Under the pieces are notes generated by a model. The model was not told the DNA's origin. It did no database searches and saw nothing but the letters and a program-made list of their open reading frames with translations. From contig JAFUIK010000020.1 in assembly GCA_017473955.1 (NCBI GenBank), positions 1 to 40,417 on the forward strand: a stretch of DNA of 40,417 nucleotides. Direction: 5' to 3'. The stretch is from Ruminococcus sp. Lineage in GTDB: Bacteria > Bacillota > Clostridia > Oscillospirales > Acutalibacteraceae. Positions 1,565 to 40,417 of the stretch are shown piece after piece; position 1 is the stretch's first letter; each line of letters starts with the position of its first letter. The position numbers were made by a program, and so were the translations under genes.

Positions 1565-1595
1565 ATCCCCATCGCTTTTGCGGTGGGGATTTTTG
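1565..1595 (+). terminator. Rho-independent terminator after glgP
   Basis: An 11-bp stem (ATCCCCATCGC with GCGGTGGGGAT, one G-T wobble) with a TTTT loop is followed by five T. It sits 28 bp after the phosphorylase stop codon. Confidence 0.93.
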
Positions 1596-1656: not shown

Positions 1657-1686
1657 TTGACAGTAAATAACTACAGTGTGTATAAT
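1657..1686 (+). promoter_or_regulatory. Strong sigma-A promoter (P1) upstream of subtilase
   Basis: TTGACA at 1657-1662 and TATAAT at 1681-1686 with an 18-bp spacer match the consensus exactly. A transcript from here would have a leader of about 260 nt before the subtilase start at 1954. The rest of the gap 1596-1953 holds the paired repeats, a second possible promoter and a five-codon leader ORF listed separately. Confidence 0.75.
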
Positions 1687-1953: not shown

Positions 1954-3900
1954 ATGAAAACAAGTAAACTAATTATGTCTTATTTATTGGCTTTGATTGT
2001 TTTATTATTATCAGTAACTTCTACGTTTGCGGTGGATGTTGTTGACATAGATAATAAAATTTCAGAGGAATTGCTAGATATCATTTCTACAAACAAAAAC
2101 GATACTATATCAGTTTGCATTTATCTAAACAACTGTGACAAAAACATTGTAAATAAACGATTAAACGAAAAGTACAAGTATAATGTGGAAGCATATGAGA
2201 ATAAAAGGGTCTATTATAACGAAGTGGTTCCTAATATAATTATTGATAATAAAACTATTGCGGTGACTGTAGAGGGAGAAAAAATCACCCCTCAAATTCT
2301 TAGTCTCGATAATAGCAACTCTTCTTTGGATATAGAGACTAGAATGAAAATTAATAGAGCAATGACCGAAGATGTAAATAAGTTCTTGCGATGTTATAGG
2401 GAAGAAATTTCTAGTGTAGTAGGTACTTATGTGTCTGATTTTGTTGAGAATAATATAGAATTATTTGCTAAGATTATTTTTCAACCTAAATACGGAGAAT
2501 TTGTTATAGCTGAAGTTTCAGCTCAAAATGTTTATAATCTTTCAAAGTTATCCGAAGTTTGCAGGATTGATTATTTTGAAAATGTTGAATATCAGAATTG
2601 TAGTTGGAATGCTAATTCTGTTGTCCAATCAGATGATAATATTGGTTTAGGAAGCAATTTGTATAATGATGGTACTGGTTATGATGGTACTGGCATAAAA
2701 ATAGGTGTCATTGAGGCAGAGTATAGTCGTTATGACGAAACAAATTACAATTTATTAGATGCAAATATCTCTTATGTTGATGCACCAGCTGTTTCTGAAA
2801 GAATCATTAAAGCTTATCATCCAACGAAAGTTTGCTCGCTTATATGCGGAAGAAAAACAATTATTGATGGAAAAACATATGGTGGAGCAGCTGCTGGTGC
2901 TACTGTTTATCAAACTGGAATCGATAATCTTGTTGAACTTTTATCTGCAATTGAGAAATTCAGCAGTATGGGAGTAAATGTTATCAATTTTAGCGGAGGA
3001 GAACAAACGGGTACGGGATATGATTATGATGCCCAATGCGTTGATAATATACTTCATAATACAAGAGTATCTTTCGTTGTGTCCGCTGGTAACAATGACA
3101 ATGGGATAACAGATGTACACACTCCTGGTAAATCATACAATGCGATAACAGTTGGGAATGCAATTACTAAATTAGGTAACGAAGCACGAGATTTTATTAC
3201 TGTTGCTGTCGCTTCAAGTTACGAGGAGGATAGTTACTGTGCTAATAAGCCTGATGTAGTCGCTCCGGGAACATATATTTATTGGCCAGTATCAGAAAGT
3301 GAAGTGTTTCTTTTGGGACACGGGACTAGTTATTCAGCCCCAATTGTTACCGCTGTAGTAGCACAAATTATGCAAAGTGATTGTTTAGCAATATTTAATC
3401 CGAATGCTGCAAAAAATTACATCATTTGTGGTTCTAGCAACGAAAATATAGATGGAACTACCGTGTCTTACGGTGAGTTAATGGATGAGAGTGGGGCTGG
3501 TTTAGTTAACGCAGTTAGGTCGTATGAGTGTTCGAATTATGGAACAGAGTATTATGGGGTGTATTCGGCTTCTCAAACCGCACCCACCGAGTATAAAACT
3601 GTAGCGACCTATAATCTTAAAAAAGGTGAAAGTATAAGAGTAGCACTTACTTTTGAAAAAGAGGAAAACATACTTTTATACGAAGAATATGGAAACAATA
3701 TAGATATAAGACTAGTTCGAGACAATCCCTACTCAACATATTGTGTAGCTTCGGAATCAACCAATAATAATGTTGAGTTAATTGATACTAAGATTCAAAC
3801 TACTGGTAATTATTGTTTGCAAGTGAGATTGACTAGCTCTATGCTTGATCCTAGTGGTAATAGCGATTTGCATTATTGGATTTCGTGGAGAACATACTAG
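1954..3900 (+). CDS. Secreted subtilisin-like (S8) serine protease with Glu at the catalytic Asp position
   Basis: The start at 1954 is chosen because AAGGAG (1942-1947) lies just before it and a clean signal peptide follows (MKTSKLIM, a hydrophobic run, then TSTFA). Product: 648 aa. Residues about 30-225 look like a propeptide, beginning DNKISEELLDII and ending VCRIDYFENVEY. The subtilase domain follows. H289 lies in YHPTKVCSLICG (usually HGTHVAG), the oxyanion Asn is N380 in VVSAGNND, and the nucleophile is S459 in GTSYSAP after KPDVVAPG. The catalytic Asp is replaced by Glu (GVIEAEY, E254), so activity may be weak or lost. A C-terminal beta-rich domain of about 110 residues resembles P-type or pre-peptidase domains. 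No dockerin or cell-wall anchor is seen. The next gene, 61 bp downstream, encodes a dockerin protein with a module like this propeptide. Confidence 0.88.
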   Translation: MKTSKLIMSYLLALIVLLLSVTSTFAVDVVDIDNKISEELLDIISTNKNDTISVCIYLNNCDKNIVNKRLNEKYKYNVEAYENKRVYYNEVVPNIIIDNKTIAVTVEGEKITPQILSLDNSNSSLDIETRMKINRAMTEDVNKFLRCYREEISSVVGTYVSDFVENNIELFAKIIFQPKYGEFVIAEVSAQNVYNLSKLSEVCRIDYFENVEYQNCSWNANSVVQSDDNIGLGSNLYNDGTGYDGTGIKIGVIEAEYSRYDETNYNLLDANISYVDAPAVSERIIKAYHPTKVCSLICGRKTIIDGKTYGGAAAGATVYQTGIDNLVELLSAIEKFSSMGVNVINFSGGEQTGTGYDYDAQCVDNILHNTRVSFVVSAGNNDNGITDVHTPGKSYNAITVGNAITKLGNEARDFITVAVASSYEEDSYCANKPDVVAPGTYIYWPVSESEVFLLGHGTSYSAPIVTAVVAQIMQSDCLAIFNPNAAKNYIICGSSNENIDGTTVSYGELMDESGAGLVNAVRSYECSNYGTEYYGVYSASQTAPTEYKTVATYNLKKGESIRVALTFEKEENILLYEEYGNNIDIRLVRDNPYSTYCVASESTNNNVELIDTKIQTTGNYCLQVRLTSSMLDPSGNSDLHYWISWRTY

Positions 3901-3961
3901 TTGAAATTGGATTGTTAGCAAAGTTTTGATTTACTTAAAGTTGAGTTTTGGAGATGATTTT

Positions 3962-4921
3962 ATGAAGAAAACATTGTCTATGGTATTAGCATTGGTTATT
4001 ATTTTACTCTGCGGAAATGTAGTGGCAGTTGCTTATGACAATAAAATCTCACCTCAATTGTTAGAGGTGATTGAAAATGGTGACCCGAATGATACAGTCG
4101 GAATAGGTATTTCTTTCTACGGAAAACAACCTAATGCATCACAAATGCCTAGCTGGCCTGACGTAGAACAGGCTAGAATAGAGTTAGAGGAATATTACGA
4201 TAACTGGTATAAAACTGAAATAGTTCCAGTAGTTTTTGATGGAATTGAGTACAAAGAGCTTTTTGTTGGTAGCGGATTGGTTATTGTGTCTGTCAAAATT
4301 TGTGACATAGAAAAGATAGCCGATAACAGCATTGTTATGCAAATCAATTATTTCAAAAACAGTGATATGGATTATGCAGATGATAAGAAATACGAAAACA
4401 AATTTATAGAGTGTTATGTTGGTGATAGAGAATACTATGAATACGAAGAAGTATATTATCACTACTCAAATAATGAAGTAATTGATTGGTGTCTTGTCAA
4501 AGGCGAAGCTAGCCAAGTAGCACTTACGACAATGTGTTATCTAAAGTTTGATGATTTTGTCCTAAAATCTCCTAGTCTATGCTATCCTTTCGATATGAAA
4601 TATGCGGTGTACGATGTGGAGAAAGAAGAGTTTGTTGACTTGGTAGATGACTATGATAAATTAGAGCAATATGAAGGGCTCATAGATGTTTTGCGAGCAC
4701 TTGATAAAAGTGTAATGCTTGGTGATGGCGATGAAGACGGTGAGCTGTCCATACTTGATGCGACAAGTATTCAAATGGAGCTTGCCGGGTTAGGACGAAT
4801 TTGGGATAATTACACAGACCGAAGAGGTGTAACCGGTCGTTTCTCGGATATAGACAGCGACGGCGAGCTCAGCGTTCTTGACGCAACTGCAATTCAGCTA
4901 AAGCTCGCAGGACTTGAATAA
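3962..4921 (+). CDS. Secreted protein: subtilase-propeptide-like module, shared C-domain, type I dockerin (A)
   Basis: The start at 3962 is supported by GGAG at 3950-3953 and a signal peptide (MKKTLSMVLALVIILLCG...VAVA). Product: 319 aa. Residues about 25-130 match the propeptide region of the upstream subtilase: DNKISPQLLEVI against DNKISEELLDII, a shared NDT nearby, and MQINYFKNSDMDY against CRIDYFENVEY. Residues about 175-235 (DWCLVKGE...LCYP...YAVYDVEKEEF) form a domain also found in the genes at 5103 and 38928. The C-terminus is a dockerin with two calcium-loop repeats (GDGDEDGELSILD, DIDSDGELSVLD) ending LKLAGLE. It is probably co-transcribed with the subtilase. An inhibitor, chaperone or adaptor role is inferred from this layout; the exact function is unknown. 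Confidence 0.85.
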   Translation: MKKTLSMVLALVIILLCGNVVAVAYDNKISPQLLEVIENGDPNDTVGIGISFYGKQPNASQMPSWPDVEQARIELEEYYDNWYKTEIVPVVFDGIEYKELFVGSGLVIVSVKICDIEKIADNSIVMQINYFKNSDMDYADDKKYENKFIECYVGDREYYEYEEVYYHYSNNEVIDWCLVKGEASQVALTTMCYLKFDDFVLKSPSLCYPFDMKYAVYDVEKEEFVDLVDDYDKLEQYEGLIDVLRALDKSVMLGDGDEDGELSILDATSIQMELAGLGRIWDNYTDRRGVTGRFSDIDSDGELSVLDATAIQLKLAGLE

Positions 4922-4955: not shown

Positions 4956-4986
4956 CCTGACCGATAAAAAATCGGTAGGGATTTTT
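4956..4986 (+). terminator. Rho-independent terminator after dockerin protein A
   Basis: The stem ACCGAT (4960-4965), loop AAAAA, ATCGGT (4971-4976), extended by outer CCT/GGG pairing, is followed by ATTTTT. It closes the subtilase/dockerin A unit. Confidence 0.75.
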
Positions 4987-5111
4987 GTGCGATTTATCAA
5001 AAAAAGGGCGGTAAATTCTACATTGAAAAGTCGAGGTTGTATTGACTCGATGATGCGTGCAATGTTACCACTAATGTGTATAAATATCAAAGGAGGCTTA
5101 TTATGAAAAAG
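4978..5111 (+). repeat. 134-bp leader repeat, copy 1
   Basis: This segment, from the tail of the terminator to the third codon of the gene at 5103, matches 5842-5975 over 134 bp with seven substitutions and no gaps. It contains TTGACT at 5042-5047, an inverted TCGAG/CTCGA pair around it, and AGGAGG at 5091-5096. The likely -10 (5066-5071, 18-bp spacer) is TACCAC here and TATCAT in copy 2, so copy 2 should be the stronger promoter. Confidence 0.9.
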
Positions 5112-5789
5112 ATAATGAGATTAGTCGTAATATTATGTATGATATTTATGCTTGTTACCACTTCGGTATCAGCAGCAAGCTCTAGGTACGCTAATGGTGT
5201 ATATGCAGATGAATTCGAAAAATATATGACGGATTGTGGATACGGACCAAACTATGAAGGTGAAGATTGGTTTACATATTCCGAGCTTTACCAGTATTTT
5301 GCTGAAGATAATGATACTGAAGTTCCAGATTGGTTATTGGTAGCTGGTAGGTATAGTGGTGTTGGTCCGATGCCGTGTTATGGTGTTTTTGGTGATTACT
5401 ATATACAGTTGATGAGTTATTGCATACCTTACCCATTGATTTATCACATTTATGTACCAACAGAGAACAAGTTTTACACACTTGAACAAGCGTGGACAGC
5501 AGACTTTGAGAATATAGAAAATGCTTTTACAGAGTATATCATTCCAAATGGGTCAGGTAGCTTTATAGGTGATGTTGATGATGACGGAAAACTCACAATT
5601 ATAGATGCTACTTATGTGCAGAAAGCTTTAGTAGGATTGTGTGTATTCAATTCATATGATGATTTAACATCATATAAAAACGCAACCAACACAGCAACGC
5701 TATCTTATGTTTCTGATATAGATAGAGACGGCAACCGCACGATTATGGATGCAACCACAATCCAGCTCAAGCTTGCAAAGGTTGAGTGA
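5103..5789 (+). CDS. Secreted small dockerin protein (B) with shared DW...YP domain
   Basis: The start at 5103 lies 6 nt after a perfect AGGAGG and opens a signal peptide (MKKIMRLVVILCMIFMLVTT...VSA). Product: 228 aa. Residues about 30-75 are acidic and aromatic with no family recognised. Residues about 76-148 (DWLLVAGRYSGVG...YCIPYP...YHIYVPTENKFYTLEQA) match the domain before the dockerin in the proteins at 3962 and 38928. Residues about 156-228 are a type I dockerin with repeats GDVDDDGKLTIID and DIDRDGNRTIMD, ending LKLAKVE. It presumably docks to a cohesin on a scaffold; the function of the front domain is unknown. Its upstream region is duplicated before the next gene, a cohesin-like protein, which suggests joint control. 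Confidence 0.85.
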   Translation: MKKIMRLVVILCMIFMLVTTSVSAASSRYANGVYADEFEKYMTDCGYGPNYEGEDWFTYSELYQYFAEDNDTEVPDWLLVAGRYSGVGPMPCYGVFGDYYIQLMSYCIPYPLIYHIYVPTENKFYTLEQAWTADFENIENAFTEYIIPNGSGSFIGDVDDDGKLTIIDATYVQKALVGLCVFNSYDDLTSYKNATNTATLSYVSDIDRDGNRTIMDATTIQLKLAKVE

Positions 5790-5821: not shown

Positions 5822-5850
5822 TCCCCACCGCAGAAGCGGTGGGGATTTTT
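5822..5850 (+). terminator. Rho-independent terminator after dockerin protein B
   Basis: A perfect 10-bp stem TCCCCACCGC/GCGGTGGGGA with loop AGAA is followed by five T. The 3' arm and T-run are nearly the same as those of the terminator after glgP. Confidence 0.92.
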
Positions 5851-5975
5851 GTACGATTTGTCAAAAAAAGGGTGTTAAATTCTACATTGAAAAGTCGAGT
5901 TTGTATTGACTCGATGATGCGTGCAATGTTATCATTAATGTGTATAAATATCAAAGGAGGCTTATTATGAAAAAG
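5842..5975 (+). repeat. 134-bp leader repeat, copy 2
   Basis: Second copy of the segment at 4978-5111, placed identically relative to the next start codon. A promoter candidate is TTGACT at 5906-5911, an 18-bp spacer and TATCAT at 5930-5935. AAAGGAGG precedes the ATG at 5967. Confidence 0.9.
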
Positions 5976-7658
5976 CTACTTTCTATCTTGCTTGCACTCA
6001 TTATTACGCTGTCAGCGTTTTTATCTCTTTCCTTCGCGGTTTTTGCTGAAGATGCAGACACCCTCGCTGTTACTGTAAACGGCGTTACAACAAACATTCC
6101 TGTAGGCGAAAAGTTCACTTATACCTACACACTGACAGACATTAAAATCCTCAACGCAGAGGCAAGGGTTAACTACGAGTCATCGAAACTCGCTGTCACA
6201 CCTATTGATGATACAGAGGAGGCATACGATGTTGTTTTCCCTCGCGTGTCATCATACGCTGTGTGCAACACTGACCTTACTGATAGAATTCTTTACAACT
6301 TCTCAACCACTAAGGGCATCAGCTTTACAGGCGAGCAGGTTCTCGCACAGTTTGAGTTCACAGCTCTTGCTGCTGGTGAAACTACACTCAGCACAGATAT
6401 GATTGAGATGGTTGACTCTGAGAAAAACTACTACGTTGATAAAACCCCTGAGGGCCCTGTTGTGGTTAAAGAGTTCACTCACAACGAATATCTCACATAC
6501 GTAGCTGATGAAGAACCGACAGAAGCTCCTACAGAGCCTGTAAAAGCTGAAAAGGTGTCGAATGTAACAGTTACAGGTACCACTAAAGCAACTTTGACTC
6601 TTTCTTGGGACAAGGTTGACGGTGCAGTTAAGTACTGGGTGTACAAACAAATGAGCGACGGTTCCTATGCTTGCGTTAAATCTGTAGCAGATACAACATA
6701 CACAGTTGCTAACCTTAACCCTGGCACAGAGTATAGCTTCAAGGTTATTTACAGCGACGCAAACGGATGGATAAGCCCTATAGCTTCGGCTGATGTAGTA
6801 ACAGCTACAACCGAGAAAGCCGCTGACGTTGAACAGATTACAGGCGTAGCAGGACTTATTGATGCTGAAATCAGCTGGGAGCCTGTTGACGGAGCTGTTA
6901 AATACTGGATTTACAAGGCGTGGGACGAAAACGGCCCGTTTTACTGCTATGACCACACAACTGAGACTTCATACAAAGTAAGAAATCTTCAGGCTGCAAC
7001 AGATTACTATTTCAAGGTAATCACAGTTACAGAGGAAAACGGCAAGCTCGTGCTTTCAAATCTTGCAGATGCACCGGTACTTCATATTCTTACCGAAGCA
7101 GCTGAGAGCATCACAGTAAAGCTTGACAGCATTTCAAAGAATTCTGCAACAATCAGCTGGCCTGCATTTGAAAATGCCACACAGTATTGGGTTAAGTATT
7201 CTAACACAACAAAGAATGTCAACCTTGACGACCAGTGGCTCACATATGATGCAACAACTGAAACTACATATACATTCAACAACCTCAAGCCAAACAGAAC
7301 ATATTACTTCACAGTAGTAGCTAAATATGCTGACGAACAGTATGGCTATCTGGTAGCGAACTACATCGCAGTAGATACAAAGACACTGTATTCTGACGAA
7401 AACTTCTTCACATTTGAGAAGCAGGAAAACGGCGGTCTTGTTGTATCATGGCCTGAAGATGTAAATTCAGCTAAGTCGTGGATGGATGTATATGACAAAG
7501 ATGGCAACTATGTTGTCACAAACTCAACAACAACAAACTCAGTATCCTTTAGCTTTGCTTATGATTGGGAGAACTGCACATTTGCACTTAAAACTCTTGA
7601 TGCAGACTCAACAGGTCGACTCATCACACCAAAGCTTGGCTGGGAGTACAAAGAATAA
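5967..7658 (+). CDS. Secreted cohesin-like protein with fibronectin type III repeats (probable small scaffoldin)
   Basis: The start at 5967 follows AGGAGG and opens a signal peptide ending near residue 27 (FAVFA). Product: 563 aa. Residues about 30-165 have the pattern of a cohesin: an N-terminal strand with VPVG-like text (NIPVGEKFTYTYTL), then ARVNYESSKLAVTP, and later VLAQFEFTALAAGETTL. A short threonine/proline linker (EEPTEAPTEPVKAE) leads to three clear fibronectin III domains (about 195-282, 283-377, 378-472), each with SW...A.YWV/I and YTF/YKV..L......Y.F.V motifs, and a weaker fourth to the C-terminus. No dockerin, LPXTG or S-layer anchor is seen. The protein could present a dockerin-binding site on a surface or polysaccharide. 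The cohesin call is by pattern and should be tested structurally. Confidence 0.72.
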   Translation: MKKLLSILLALIITLSAFLSLSFAVFAEDADTLAVTVNGVTTNIPVGEKFTYTYTLTDIKILNAEARVNYESSKLAVTPIDDTEEAYDVVFPRVSSYAVCNTDLTDRILYNFSTTKGISFTGEQVLAQFEFTALAAGETTLSTDMIEMVDSEKNYYVDKTPEGPVVVKEFTHNEYLTYVADEEPTEAPTEPVKAEKVSNVTVTGTTKATLTLSWDKVDGAVKYWVYKQMSDGSYACVKSVADTTYTVANLNPGTEYSFKVIYSDANGWISPIASADVVTATTEKAADVEQITGVAGLIDAEISWEPVDGAVKYWIYKAWDENGPFYCYDHTTETSYKVRNLQAATDYYFKVITVTEENGKLVLSNLADAPVLHILTEAAESITVKLDSISKNSATISWPAFENATQYWVKYSNTTKNVNLDDQWLTYDATTETTYTFNNLKPNRTYYFTVVAKYADEQYGYLVANYIAVDTKTLYSDENFFTFEKQENGGLVVSWPEDVNSAKSWMDVYDKDGNYVVTNSTTTNSVSFSFAYDWENCTFALKTLDADSTGRLITPKLGWEYKE

Positions 7659-30159: not shown

Positions 30160-32301
30160 ATGAAAAAATATATAAGTATTTTGCTGGTTTTGACAATGCT
30201 TGCGTCGTTTGTTTCGATATCAGCATCAGCGTATAGCTGGGATGATCCTGATGCTATTACAGTTGATGAAGCGGTCGCTGAATACGAAGCTGAAACAGGC
30301 GAAGAGGTTGAAACATTCAGATATTACTTCCTTATGCCAAACGGCTCTAACGGAGAGCGTGGCAATGACGAGTTCTCAATGTATTATGATAAGTATCATG
30401 CAAGCTGGTACACAAGGTTTGAGGATGGTACACCTACAACAAACACAGCGTGTATTTACTGGTGGGACTCGGATGTTGCTGACCCTGATGGTTGGATTGG
30501 TTATCTCCCATCAGGAGTTGATGAAAATGACCCTGATGTTTACTATGCAGATGTTCCTGTAGCTGCAACAACAATTATCTGGAACAATGGCGTTGACGGT
30601 GGTATGGATCCTGATGATCCTATCTACTATAGCAGTGCCCAGACAGTCAACATCCCTTGTGAATATTATGACGCGGGCGAGTCACCAAACTATCCTAACG
30701 GCACAGAAAACTTCGATGAAATGATTTTTGTTATCACTCCTGGTCTTGTCCATACCAGTGATTTATCACTTAAGCTGACTTGCGATGGAGAATGGTACTA
30801 CTATTATGGCAACGGCTGTTATGGTTTTACTGAAAACGGTGACGAAGATGACTGTCTGCGTGACGATCACTTTGATGCATCAGGTAACCATATTGGAAAG
30901 CATACTCCTTCAGTTGACCTGACAAATTGTGTTATCGCAGGAGCTGACGAAACCGACCCGTCTAAAATCAATGGTACAGTCCACGGATATATGGGCGATG
31001 CTGACGGTGACGGCGAAGTTTCAGTTATGGATGCAACTGAAATCCAGCTTTATGTCGCTCGACTGAAAGCTATGGACGAAGTTTCTGTTCTGCTGTCTGA
31101 AGTTGACCGCGACGGCGATACATCCGTAATGGACGCGACAGAGATTCAGCTTTTTGTAGCTAGGCTTAAAACATCTGACGTAATCGGCAGAATTCTGTAC
31201 ACTCCTATCAACGAATTGGACCCTGAAAAGTACACCTACATCAAGGCGGATGGAGAGTACTATATGGTACCCCCTGATAGCAAAATCTTTACTTACACCT
31301 CATACTTAGCGTGCGACAGAAAGCTTGCTTCGGTTGATGTAGATATTGACTATGACCATAACGGTCTTAAATTTGTGCCCGATGTTGATAAATACGGCGA
31401 CTATACAGGAAACGAGTTTCCTAACCTTAAAGCTCCTGTATACAACTTTAGTGTGCCCAGTAGAATAAGTTATAATATGTCTTTTGTTTCGGGAGTAAGG
31501 TTCCCTGTTCAGGATAGCGTGAGGACAGAAGATAACATTCTGTTCTCAGGTCAGTTTGAAGTTATAGGTGGTCCGGGTGTTTATGAGCTGGATACACGCA
31601 TTATAGTATTAGGTGATACAAATAACAACAGAATTGTTTACAATTATGAACAGATAGACGAAACTGCTGTTGTAATGATAGACAGCGAAATTAACTGCGA
31701 TAAATCGCCTGTTCCGACAGAACCACCTACAGTTCCTGTACTGAAATGTGACATTTGCTCTTCATCGAATGCGTATTATTCTGATCAGGGATACCAGCTT
31801 TGTGGGACTTGTTTATATTACAATAAGCACCTTATTTGTGATAGCTGTGGAGATTATGGTGCAACATATAAATACGGTGACAAAAAATATTGTTACAATT
31901 GCAAGTACACCGATTGTGATAAATGTGGTACTGCTGTTTCTAGTCTTTACTACTATAATGGTTATGACCTGTGTTACAACTGTTACTATTCTATGAGGTA
32001 CACCAATTGTGACAGATGCGGAACTTCTGTATCTACCCCTTACTACTATGATGGCTATGAACTGTGTTTGAGTTGTTACAACAATTTGTCTTCAAGGATA
32101 TACTGCGACAATTGCGGTACCTATGTTTATAGTCCTAGTTATTACAAAGGCTATAAACTGTGTTACAGTTGTTATTTAAGTATGAGCAATTCTGTGACAT
32201 GTTATTACTGCAAAGATCATGTCTCCGCATATAAACAGATTGTAGTTTCAGGAATATACAGATATGTTTGTTATCCTTGCTATTATACTAAAGTGTATTG
32301 A
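30160..32301 (+). CDS. Secreted multi-domain protein: N-terminal module, central dockerin, cohesin-like module, six CxxC..CxxC modules
   Basis: 713 aa; TGGAGG 7 nt before the ATG; signal peptide ending SISASA near residue 24. Residues about 45-270 form a Trp/Tyr/Asp-rich module (FYYFLMPNGSNGERG-like text, CIYWWDSDVADPDGW, TIIWNNGVDGGMDPDDP, EWYYYYGNGCYGF) common in secreted Ruminococcus proteins and probably carbohydrate-related. Residues about 277-340 are a type I dockerin with two repeats (GDADGDGEVSVMD, EVDRDGDTSVMD). Residues about 347-510 look like a cohesin (FTYTSYLACDRKLASVDVDI, ILFSGQFEVIGGPGVYELDT). After a PTEPPTVPV linker, residues about 528-713 hold six CxxC-x(14-19)-CxxC units, for example CDKC...CYNC and CDRC...CLSC, 24 cysteines in all. 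These resemble LIM or zinc-ribbon modules but on an exported protein. Function unknown; an adaptor scaffoldin is plausible. Confidence 0.82.
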   Translation: MKKYISILLVLTMLASFVSISASAYSWDDPDAITVDEAVAEYEAETGEEVETFRYYFLMPNGSNGERGNDEFSMYYDKYHASWYTRFEDGTPTTNTACIYWWDSDVADPDGWIGYLPSGVDENDPDVYYADVPVAATTIIWNNGVDGGMDPDDPIYYSSAQTVNIPCEYYDAGESPNYPNGTENFDEMIFVITPGLVHTSDLSLKLTCDGEWYYYYGNGCYGFTENGDEDDCLRDDHFDASGNHIGKHTPSVDLTNCVIAGADETDPSKINGTVHGYMGDADGDGEVSVMDATEIQLYVARLKAMDEVSVLLSEVDRDGDTSVMDATEIQLFVARLKTSDVIGRILYTPINELDPEKYTYIKADGEYYMVPPDSKIFTYTSYLACDRKLASVDVDIDYDHNGLKFVPDVDKYGDYTGNEFPNLKAPVYNFSVPSRISYNMSFVSGVRFPVQDSVRTEDNILFSGQFEVIGGPGVYELDTRIIVLGDTNNNRIVYNYEQIDETAVVMIDSEINCDKSPVPTEPPTVPVLKCDICSSSNAYYSDQGYQLCGTCLYYNKHLICDSCGDYGATYKYGDKKYCYNCKYTDCDKCGTAVSSLYYYNGYDLCYNCYYSMRYTNCDRCGTSVSTPYYYDGYELCLSCYNNLSSRIYCDNCGTYVYSPSYYKGYKLCYSCYLSMSNSVTCYYCKDHVSAYKQIVVSGIYRYVCYPCYYTKVY

Positions 32302-38927: not shown

Positions 38928-39620
38928 TTACTCAAGTTTCGCAAGTTTGAGTTGAATAGCGGTTGCATCTAACACAGTACGCTCGCCGTCAAAATCAAAG
39001 TCGGAAATGTAAAGTACCCCTTTTTCTCCCTGATAGCTGTAGGCATTTGGCAATAAATCCCTAACTTCAAAATCATTGATACCTGCCAAATATCCTTGAA
39101 TTAACGATGCATCTAGTATTGATATTTCGCCGTCAGCGTCCATATCTCCGCATTTATACACTGTATAGTTGCTTGAACCATTAGTTATTTCCTCGCTGTG
39201 ATTGTCTAAGAAATCTCTAAGGTAAGCTGTCACACTGTCTTGTGCTTCCTTGAAGGTATAAATTGTTTTGGCATCTACGTCGTAGATGTATAAGCCCATT
39301 GCAGGGTAACACTGATTCGAACGTTTTATTATATAATCAAGATATCTTGCCGCATTGACTGAATCAGCTCCACCAGATATGCTCCAAAGCACATAAACAT
39401 AGTCGATGGTATTTTCATCGGCATAGTGACAATATGTGTCATAAATTTGTCCTTCTCGTGTATCAGTAGTGTAATTCCTAAAAGCTTGTGTGACTTCGTT
39501 CAACACTCTAGTTTCGATATTTGAAACGTCTTGAGCATCGGCATCCACAGCAGAAACATTCATTATACAAGCAGAAATCAACATAACTGCAGTAAGCATA
39601 ATGCTAACAAGTCTTTTCAT
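38928..39620 (-). CDS. Secreted small dockerin protein (C) paired with a subtilase
   Basis: 230 aa; AAGGAG 8 nt before the ATG; signal peptide MKRLVSIMLTAVMLISACIM ending near NVSA (residue 24). Residues about 72-140 (DYVYVLWSIS...QCYP..GLYIYDVDAKTIYTFKEA) match the domain before the dockerin in proteins A (3962) and B (5103). Residues about 157-230 are a type I dockerin with GDMDADGEISILD and DFDFDGERTVLD, ending LKLAKLE as in B. The N-terminal part (NIETRVLNEVTQAFRNYTTD) is helical and does not show the propeptide-like module of A. It lies 26 bp after the subtilase gene and is surely in the same transcript. Confidence 0.85.
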   Translation of the reverse strand: MKRLVSIMLTAVMLISACIMNVSAVDADAQDVSNIETRVLNEVTQAFRNYTTDTREGQIYDTYCHYADENTIDYVYVLWSISGGADSVNAARYLDYIIKRSNQCYPAMGLYIYDVDAKTIYTFKEAQDSVTAYLRDFLDNHSEEITNGSSNYTVYKCGDMDADGEISILDASLIQGYLAGINDFEVRDLLPNAYSYQGEKGVLYISDFDFDGERTVLDATAIQLKLAKLE

Positions 39621-39646: not shown

Positions 39647-40417
39647 TTAATAGGCACTAGCACTATATGTTATAGCGTAGTCAATGTTATTATTTGAGTT
39701 GGCTGTCCCTTGTCTATAAACACGGATTGAGTATTCACCATTTTCAGTCGCGTTGAATGTAATCACCTGTTTGTTGTCATACATATAATTAGATGTATAG
39801 GTTATACCGCTCGGCGTTACAACAGTTAAGCTCAAATTATCTAACGCAGGAGAAGTTGCGTTGTTGCTGTCGTGTTCTCCATTAACTGTATTGTACTTAT
39901 CCCAAGTCAAGCAAAATCTAAGGGTTTTATTAGCAACTTTGGTTATATTTCTAGTAACTACTACACCGGTGGAATTGTTAGAGAAAGAACCAGTTATGTA
40001 ATTTCCTTTTGTAATAAAAGTTTCGTACGCTTTAGTTAAATTCAATCTTCCAGCTCCGTATTTTCTACTTAAAGCTATTGCTTCTGAGCTGACAGTTGAA
40101 AATACAGGCTCATTTTCAAGCATATCCTGTGTAAGTGAGGATGAAGAAAGTAGTAGAGATTTCATCAAAGTAGGATTAGTTGCCAATATAGGACTAGCTT
40201 GAGAAAGCTGTATAACAGCAGATGTCACAAGAGGAGCCGAAAATGATGTACCAATTTGATCACCAAGTATAGGATTTACTAAATATACACCTGGTGCAAC
40301 TACATCAGGTTTATAGCTTAGATTGCCACTACTCGTATATGAGGAATCAAGTGCAATAATACCATCTCTATCACAATTTCCGACAGCTATAGCATTATAT
40401 GCTGTGTTTGATGGTAC
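39647..40417 (-). CDS. Subtilisin-like serine protease, C-terminal part (5' end outside window)
   Basis: The frame is open to the window edge; 256 C-terminal residues are visible. Reading from the edge: VPSNTAYNAIAVGNCDRDG, then KPDVVAPGVYLVNP, then QIGTSFSAPLVTSAVIQLS with the catalytic Ser in GTSFSAP. The C-terminal 100 residues form a beta-rich domain (LRFCLTWDKYN, ENGEYSIRVYRQ) like the one in the subtilase at 1954. The Asp, His and oxyanion Asn and the propeptide lie outside. No dockerin is present at the end, as in the other subtilase. The dockerin protein C follows after 26 bp. Confidence 0.9.
   Translation of the reverse strand, partial: VPSNTAYNAIAVGNCDRDGIIALDSSYTSSGNLSYKPDVVAPGVYLVNPILGDQIGTSFSAPLVTSAVIQLSQASPILATNPTLMKSLLLSSSSLTQDMLENEPVFSTVSSEAIALSRKYGAGRLNLTKAYETFITKGNYITGSFSNNSTGVVVTRNITKVANKTLRFCLTWDKYNTVNGEHDSNNATSPALDNLSLTVVTPSGITYTSNYMYDNKQVITFNATENGEYSIRVYRQGTANSNNNIDYAITYSASAY

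Follow-up and report, generated by a model that had tools for sequence, protein, structure and literature searches.

The present study focused on a secreted subtilase gene and the dockerin gene that follows it, both in a 40,417-nucleotide contig of a Ruminococcus species; the whole of this stretch is called the window below. The source genome, in which the window is contig 15, is a draft of 1.6 Mb with a completeness of 83 per cent; 62 dockerin matches were counted in it. Genes were called with a simple ORF picker and no gene finder. The relevant features of the window are as follows, where M1 and M2 are two modules of the dockerin proteins and the clade is the divergent group of subtilases that includes P0001.

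1565..1590, + strand: terminator-like hairpin at the end of the preceding gene (consensus match only)
1657..1686, + strand: promoter-like site TTGACA-18-TATAAT (12/12), 5' of the subtilase (consensus match only)
1954..3900, + strand: P0001, secreted S8-domain subtilase (PF00082 match; signal peptide by eye)
2032..2601, + strand: propeptide of P0001, approximately residues 27-216, about 190 residues (profile comparisons)
3962..4921, + strand: protein A (P0002), with signal peptide (by eye), M1, M2 and dockerin
4034..4375, + strand: M1, subtilase-propeptide-like (I9-like) module, residues 25-138 of protein A (profile comparisons)
4400..4696, + strand: M2 of protein A, residues 147-245, without credible known family
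4721..4897, + strand: type I dockerin, residues 254-312 of protein A (under the Pfam cut-off alone)
4960..4976, both strands listed: terminator-like hairpin 3' of protein A (consensus match only)
5103..5789, + strand: protein B (P0003), M2 and dockerin
38928..39620, - strand: M2 and dockerin protein, immediately 3' of the second subtilase
39647..40417, - strand: second clade subtilase, N-terminal part lost at the contig end

The stop codon of the subtilase and the ATG of protein A are 61 bases apart with no terminator-like site between them, and the two genes are likely to share one transcript. Promoter-like sites overall were not enriched in the window (26 observed vs 21.4 in shuffles). The dockerin of protein A scored 16.7 bits against a cut-off of 22.9 with Pfam alone; it was found by a dockerin profile built in this analysis, carries both repeats of a duplicated type I dockerin, and aligns with other dockerins. 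In the same genome (G000) one cohesin, C18, exceeds the Pfam cut-off with 26.7 bits, and two others are weaker. Pfam gave no serpin domain match in protein A, nor in 19 rows of M1-M2 proteins.

Several other features of the window were seen in passing. A 145-base leader stands before protein B (4970-5114) and again before the next protein, an fn3 protein (5834-5978), with 135 positions identical by alignment score. The gene for the latter looked cohesin-like by eye; Pfam gave fn3 and no cohesin, but Ruminococcus cohesins are reported to escape profiles (PMC11557425) and one may have been missed here. At 30160-32301 lies a dockerin protein with Cys-rich C-terminal repeats, for which the best match, a double zinc ribbon, is just under its cut-off (25.1 vs 27.3 bits).

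A divergent clade of subtilases

P0001 matches the S8 domain PF00082 with an E-value of 6.7e-22 (78.6 bits vs a cut-off of 21.8), and a Pfam scan of it found no dockerin. Peptidase families are defined by homology, and the Asp of the Asp-His-Ser triad is usual among S8 members and not required for membership; P0001 is placed in S8 by its domain only. Its active-site columns hold Glu254, at the position of the catalytic Asp of subtilisins (codon at 2713-2715 of the window), followed by His289, Asn380 and Ser459. Across the clade, this first column is Glu in 20 of the 28 subtilases that could be scored and Asp in the other 8, while S8 proteins outside the clade had Asp in 23 of 23. The remaining His, Asn and Ser are kept by clade subtilases wherever they were scored; a loss of the catalytic His in three of them, suggested by one alignment, disappeared in a better alignment that places a His there. 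Nothing to the point on Glu in a subtilase triad was found among the best 12 of 212 literature matches, and these Glu-for-Asp subtilases are a separate, testable oddity.

Counted as ORFs of at least 200 aa and more than 90 bits, with shorter fragments dropped, the clade has 34 members in the genus, 16 of which carry a dockerin of their own. The genome of the window has three S8 matches, each followed by a dockerin gene; a fourth, partial subtilase (N-terminal half) sits at the edge of its contig 45.

M1 and the subtilase propeptide

A first-pass annotation of the locus had pointed to motifs common to the propeptide of P0001 and the first module of protein A. These are indeed present in both, namely DNKIS..LL..I near the mature N-termini, NDT, and I(D/N)YF(E/K)N, and their order is kept. 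A direct BLASTP comparison of the two proteins returned one 53-residue match, signal peptide included, with an E-value of 2e-4 for a single comparison. This single-pair comparison is too weak, and homology was therefore decided by profiles.

In a profile-profile comparison, 18 M1 modules and 17 clade propeptides matched over 109 columns with a probability of 96.4 and an E-value of 1.1e-9. Removal of the rows from the window left this almost as it was (96.39, 1.2e-9), and with locus L144 removed as well the values were 95.5 and 1.4e-8. The best of 100 column-shuffled controls scored 21.7 against 60.25 for the real comparison, and the negative controls gave probabilities of 0.29 (reversed M1), 0.06 (M1 vs catalytic domain) and 0.13 (M1 vs M2). 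Six-frame searches of the genome agree: a profile of 22 M1 rows (A5) found the propeptide of P0001 itself at an E-value of 3.3e-6, and one of 55 M1 rows from which proteases were excluded (A7) found it at 1.5e-14, together with the propeptides of other subtilases. Intermediate modules also exist, in four non-protease proteins (L133, L142, L148 and L155), and these match both propeptides and M1 (E-values 3.5e-15 and 4.3e-15). The first-pass annotation is thus borne out in that M1 is related to the subtilase propeptide encoded upstream, and in that it is joined to a dockerin in protein A. Judged by sequence, M1 is homologous to S8 propeptides and falls with the MEROPS I9 / S8 propeptide inhibitors by their sequence criterion, as judged against the propeptides of the clade.

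The sequence of M1 has diverged strongly. M1 comprises around 110 residues and does not have the long central insertion found in clade propeptides, including that of P0001. Among 177,635 PDB sequences, the top two matches of profile A7 were propeptide chains of Tk-subtilisin, with weak E-values of 0.83 and 1.5, and the clade propeptide profile matched a chain of the same propeptide alone (E-value 1.1). The Tk-subtilisin propeptide (2z57, PF18237) is therefore the nearest solved sequence match of both profiles, weak as it is; the alignment of M1 to 2z57 covers the C-terminal half only, and the propeptide, unlike M1, is part of its own protease. The corresponding Pfam model, Tk-SP_N-pro, was matched by 5 of 20 clade subtilases, P0001 not among the five, at 3e-4 or weaker (best 25 of 32 families listed). 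In the scan of single M1 modules, where the best 25 of 38 families were listed, it was matched by 1 of 55 (E-value 0.0059), and the unrelated Acetyltransf_4 did better (6.9e-4). Over all M1 proteins scanned, no propeptide model rose above its Pfam cut-off, and M1 could be given no credible Pfam family. A recent copying of the neighbouring propeptide found no support: in the five M1 modules ranked (L155 and L142 not among them) the propeptide of the neighbour was never first, coming 5th, 12th, 4th, 20th and 19th of 26.

Gene pairing, M2 and the distribution of M1

Of the 34 clade ORFs, 29 have a readable downstream neighbour, the other five lying at contig ends, and in 21 of the 29 this neighbour is a dockerin gene. 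The controls came from 40 regions, a subset picked from the S8 list, in which 26 S8 ORFs passed the motif filter; two were at contig ends, and just 1 of the remaining 24 was followed by a dockerin gene (Fisher 2.4e-7). Without two near-identical loci, the clade figure is 20 of 27 (Fisher 3.2e-7). Pairing is seen with 13 of the 15 evaluable clade subtilases that have their own dockerin, and with 8 of the 14 that have none. Dockerin matches at E 1e-6 were counted in nine genomes, a small number: those with an unpaired locus had 11 (G151), 15 (G188), 26 (G176) and 38 (G147, which also holds a paired locus), those with a paired locus 43 (G135), 30 (G142) and 18 (G179), and those without S8 matches 43 (G136) and 23 (G214).

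One explanation for this arrangement is that protein A is an adaptor which, via M1 or M2, brings a dockerin-less subtilase to the scaffold, where the protease would act, any inhibition being incidental. It would suit P0001, which has no dockerin match while its neighbour has one, and the eight paired subtilases of the same kind. However, where the subtilase has a dockerin of its own an adaptor is unneeded, and because such subtilases are mostly paired too, tethering cannot be the general purpose of the partner. We consider an adaptor role improbable.

The feature that marks the partners most constantly is M2, which is common to many dockerin proteins; among the 21 dockerin partners of the clade it occurs in 18, and M1 in 5. 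No credible Pfam family was found for M2, and its PDB matches (arginine kinase, E-value 0.03) were short and were set aside as not credible. A search with the pattern of the M2 region gave 19 named loci, 15 of them from Ruminococcus sp., some originating from the gut of goat, sheep, roe deer and dairy cattle. Distances among subtilases and among M2 modules correlate (Mantel r 0.62, p 0.0002) over 15 pairs, all chosen for having an M2 neighbour and drawn from 18 such pairs, three of which were left out. This correlation shows joint inheritance and not contact. As the more constant feature of the partners, M2 may be the specific binder of the clade. The same correlation would be consistent with M1 or M2 aiding the folding or maturation of the subtilase in trans, given that propeptides of mesophilic bacterial subtilases are described as obligatory chaperones (PMC10580911), but the subtilase retains a full propeptide of its own and folding needs no dockerin, so that a helper of this type seems very improbable.

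M1 was found in 48 of 161 genomes of the genus at E 1e-4, or in 46 once G197 and G278 are dropped, whose sole hits are subtilase propeptides. In the regions fetched there are 74 M1-bearing ORFs that are not proteases, counted at E 1e-3 with profiles partly built from the same sequences, and of these 67 carry a dockerin and 50 carry M2; some proteins have M1 in tandem, with two or three copies. In a sample of the family, 14 of 398 genomes matched at E 1e-6; they belong to 8 of the 135 genera, own genus included. Four loci of other genera (L282, L283, L286 and L287) have M1 with a dockerin, and the other loci inspected proved to be subtilases.

A few individual loci can be described here as observations in their own right. 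The genome of the window has another M1-M2-dockerin gene (L131 6451-7425, equal to L010 1264-2238), beside which lie ORFs for a sigma-factor-like protein and an anti-sigma-like membrane protein (by eye). At L281 1495-1989 a 164-residue ORF resembles a free subtilase propeptide, with neither protease nor dockerin, and may be a broken gene. Two secreted, dockerin-less proteins (L133 6462-7709 and L141 3662-4933) have a common Lys-rich C-terminal region (by eye); one has M1 and M2, and one is directly behind a clade subtilase.

The gene pair of the window is repeated elsewhere. Dockerin genes of the M1 type stand directly behind a subtilase in the window and in L142, L144, L148 and L155, and two genes downstream of one in L118. 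The direct cases number 5 among the 69 M1 ORFs whose upstream neighbour could be read, and the proportion of all M1 ORFs (5/74) is above chance (binomial 3e-8 and 5e-6 under two assumed rates). With L118 added, six of the 74 lie within two genes of a subtilase; for the remaining 68 none was recognised at that distance, in regions some of which are truncated at contig ends. M1 and clade subtilases occur together in 10 genomes where 7.1 are expected (p 0.23); there are 27 clade genomes, of which 25 entered this test, G153, whose hit is an M1 dockerin ORF, and G172, with a fragment of 166 residues, being left out. In a sample of 100 genomes, S8 was undetected in 11 of 30 with M1 and 22 of 70 others (p 0.65). 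A general dependence of M1 on a subtilase, close by or elsewhere in its own genome, was accordingly not upheld: most M1 ORFs have none near, and presence is not associated. The first-pass annotation had envisaged a dockerin protein with a propeptide module encoded next to its own protease; this arrangement does recur, and the lack of repeated pairing that the annotation had named as a refutation was not observed, but it is not a general rule, the usual partner being an M2 protein.

Two further explanations draw on this distribution. M1-dockerin proteins could be a shield against foreign proteases only, inhibiting subtilases of competitors, plants or the host, with adjacency to an own subtilase being secondary. 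The lack of association with own S8 genes, and the M1 genomes in which S8 was undetected, would agree with this, and inhibitors from the cellulosome of C. cellulovorans are reported to target cysteine proteases of plants (PMC6547498). It does not account for the above-chance number of M1 ORFs directly behind a subtilase, and many genomes are incomplete, so the absence of S8 is not certain; as a sole function, such a shield appears unlikely. Alternatively, M1 may have been repurposed for plain binding or scaffolding within dockerin proteins, with no action on proteases. Its tandem copies, wide spread away from subtilases and strongly diverged sequence are what would be expected, but the neighbourhood with subtilases recurs, and this too we think doubtful.

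A proposed protease inhibitor on the cellulosome

The explanation we favour, and to which we would give as much credence as doubt, is that protein A serves as a secreted protease inhibitor, derived from a subtilase propeptide and tethered by its dockerin. All that goes further than homology and gene neighbourhood is what we infer, fold, binding and inhibition included. M1 would keep the propeptide fold and cap subtilases at the active-site cleft; it would differ from a propeptide in not being cut from a protease. M2 would be a second binding or folding module, for the clade, and the dockerin would put both modules on the cellulosome. In the window, protein A would restrain the co-expressed subtilase on the assembly, and in most relatives, which have no such subtilase near, M1 proteins would shield docked enzymes from other gut subtilases.

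Counted in favour of an inhibitor were the homology of M1, the dockerin on 67 of 74 M1 ORFs, the pairing of the clade, the Mantel correlation, and the presence of a cohesin in the genome. Counted against it were that most M1 genes have no recognised subtilase near them, that an association of M1 with subtilases is absent, that M1 is not closest to the propeptide of its neighbour, that M2 and not M1 is the usual partner feature, that the central insertion is missing in M1, and that known propeptide families are scarcely matched by M1 modules taken singly. It could be speculated further that the clade, in which Glu mostly replaces the catalytic Asp, and a docked partner with M2 and optionally M1 are passed on together, and that this partner keeps the protease locked on the cellulosome and frees it on demand, as a safety catch with an anchor of its own, related to a broader set of docked inhibitors derived from propeptides; this fuller scenario is rather unlikely to hold in all its parts.

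Proteins resembling propeptides are reported to inhibit subtilases, and the gene of one, SUB1-ProM, adjoins that of its target (PMC6993865), an arrangement that protein A and P0001 would parallel. The stand-alone inhibitors of this type (MEROPS I9, SUB1-ProM, TgMIC5) are like M1 in being propeptide-like modules outside a protease. The cases named in that source are, however, eukaryotic, whereas M1 is found on bacterial dockerin proteins, mostly together with M2 and sometimes in tandem, and its inhibition is putative.

Inhibitors bearing dockerins are held to protect cellulosomes (PMC12484212), and those described are serpins such as PinA, Dpi and cyspins (PMC12484212, PMC3444338, PMC6547498). 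Protein A, as a proposed inhibitor, shares with these the union of inhibitor and dockerin in a cellulosome; the cellulosomal serpins have a serpin domain, which is absent in protein A, and Dpi and cyspins are likened to it by description only. Another parallel is an S8 protease of C. thermocellum with a double dockerin, linked to the cellulosome as the 16 clade ORFs with their own dockerin would be; a partner with a propeptide-like module is not mentioned in the available part of that source (PMC12484212). Other articles describe dockerin-bearing serpins or peptidases, or have an S8 domain in a scaffoldin figure, and their available parts do not mention a propeptide module (PMC3573020, PMC5301203, PMC2721979, PMC11557425). 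Among the literature matches listed, titles and abstract openings describe no protein that unites a dockerin with a subtilase-propeptide module, with most subscription journals outside that coverage.

Some dockerin proteins of R. flavefaciens are reported to be without identified function (PMC3573020). The present study puts forward a testable function for 67 dockerin ORFs of a single genus and draws attention to M2 as a new module. If the proposal is true, inhibitors derived from propeptides would join the serpins and other inhibitors of cellulosomes, and it would show in what way a complex that degrades fibre can coexist with proteases; the docked propeptide-like module could represent a novel type of protease inhibitor on the cellulosome.
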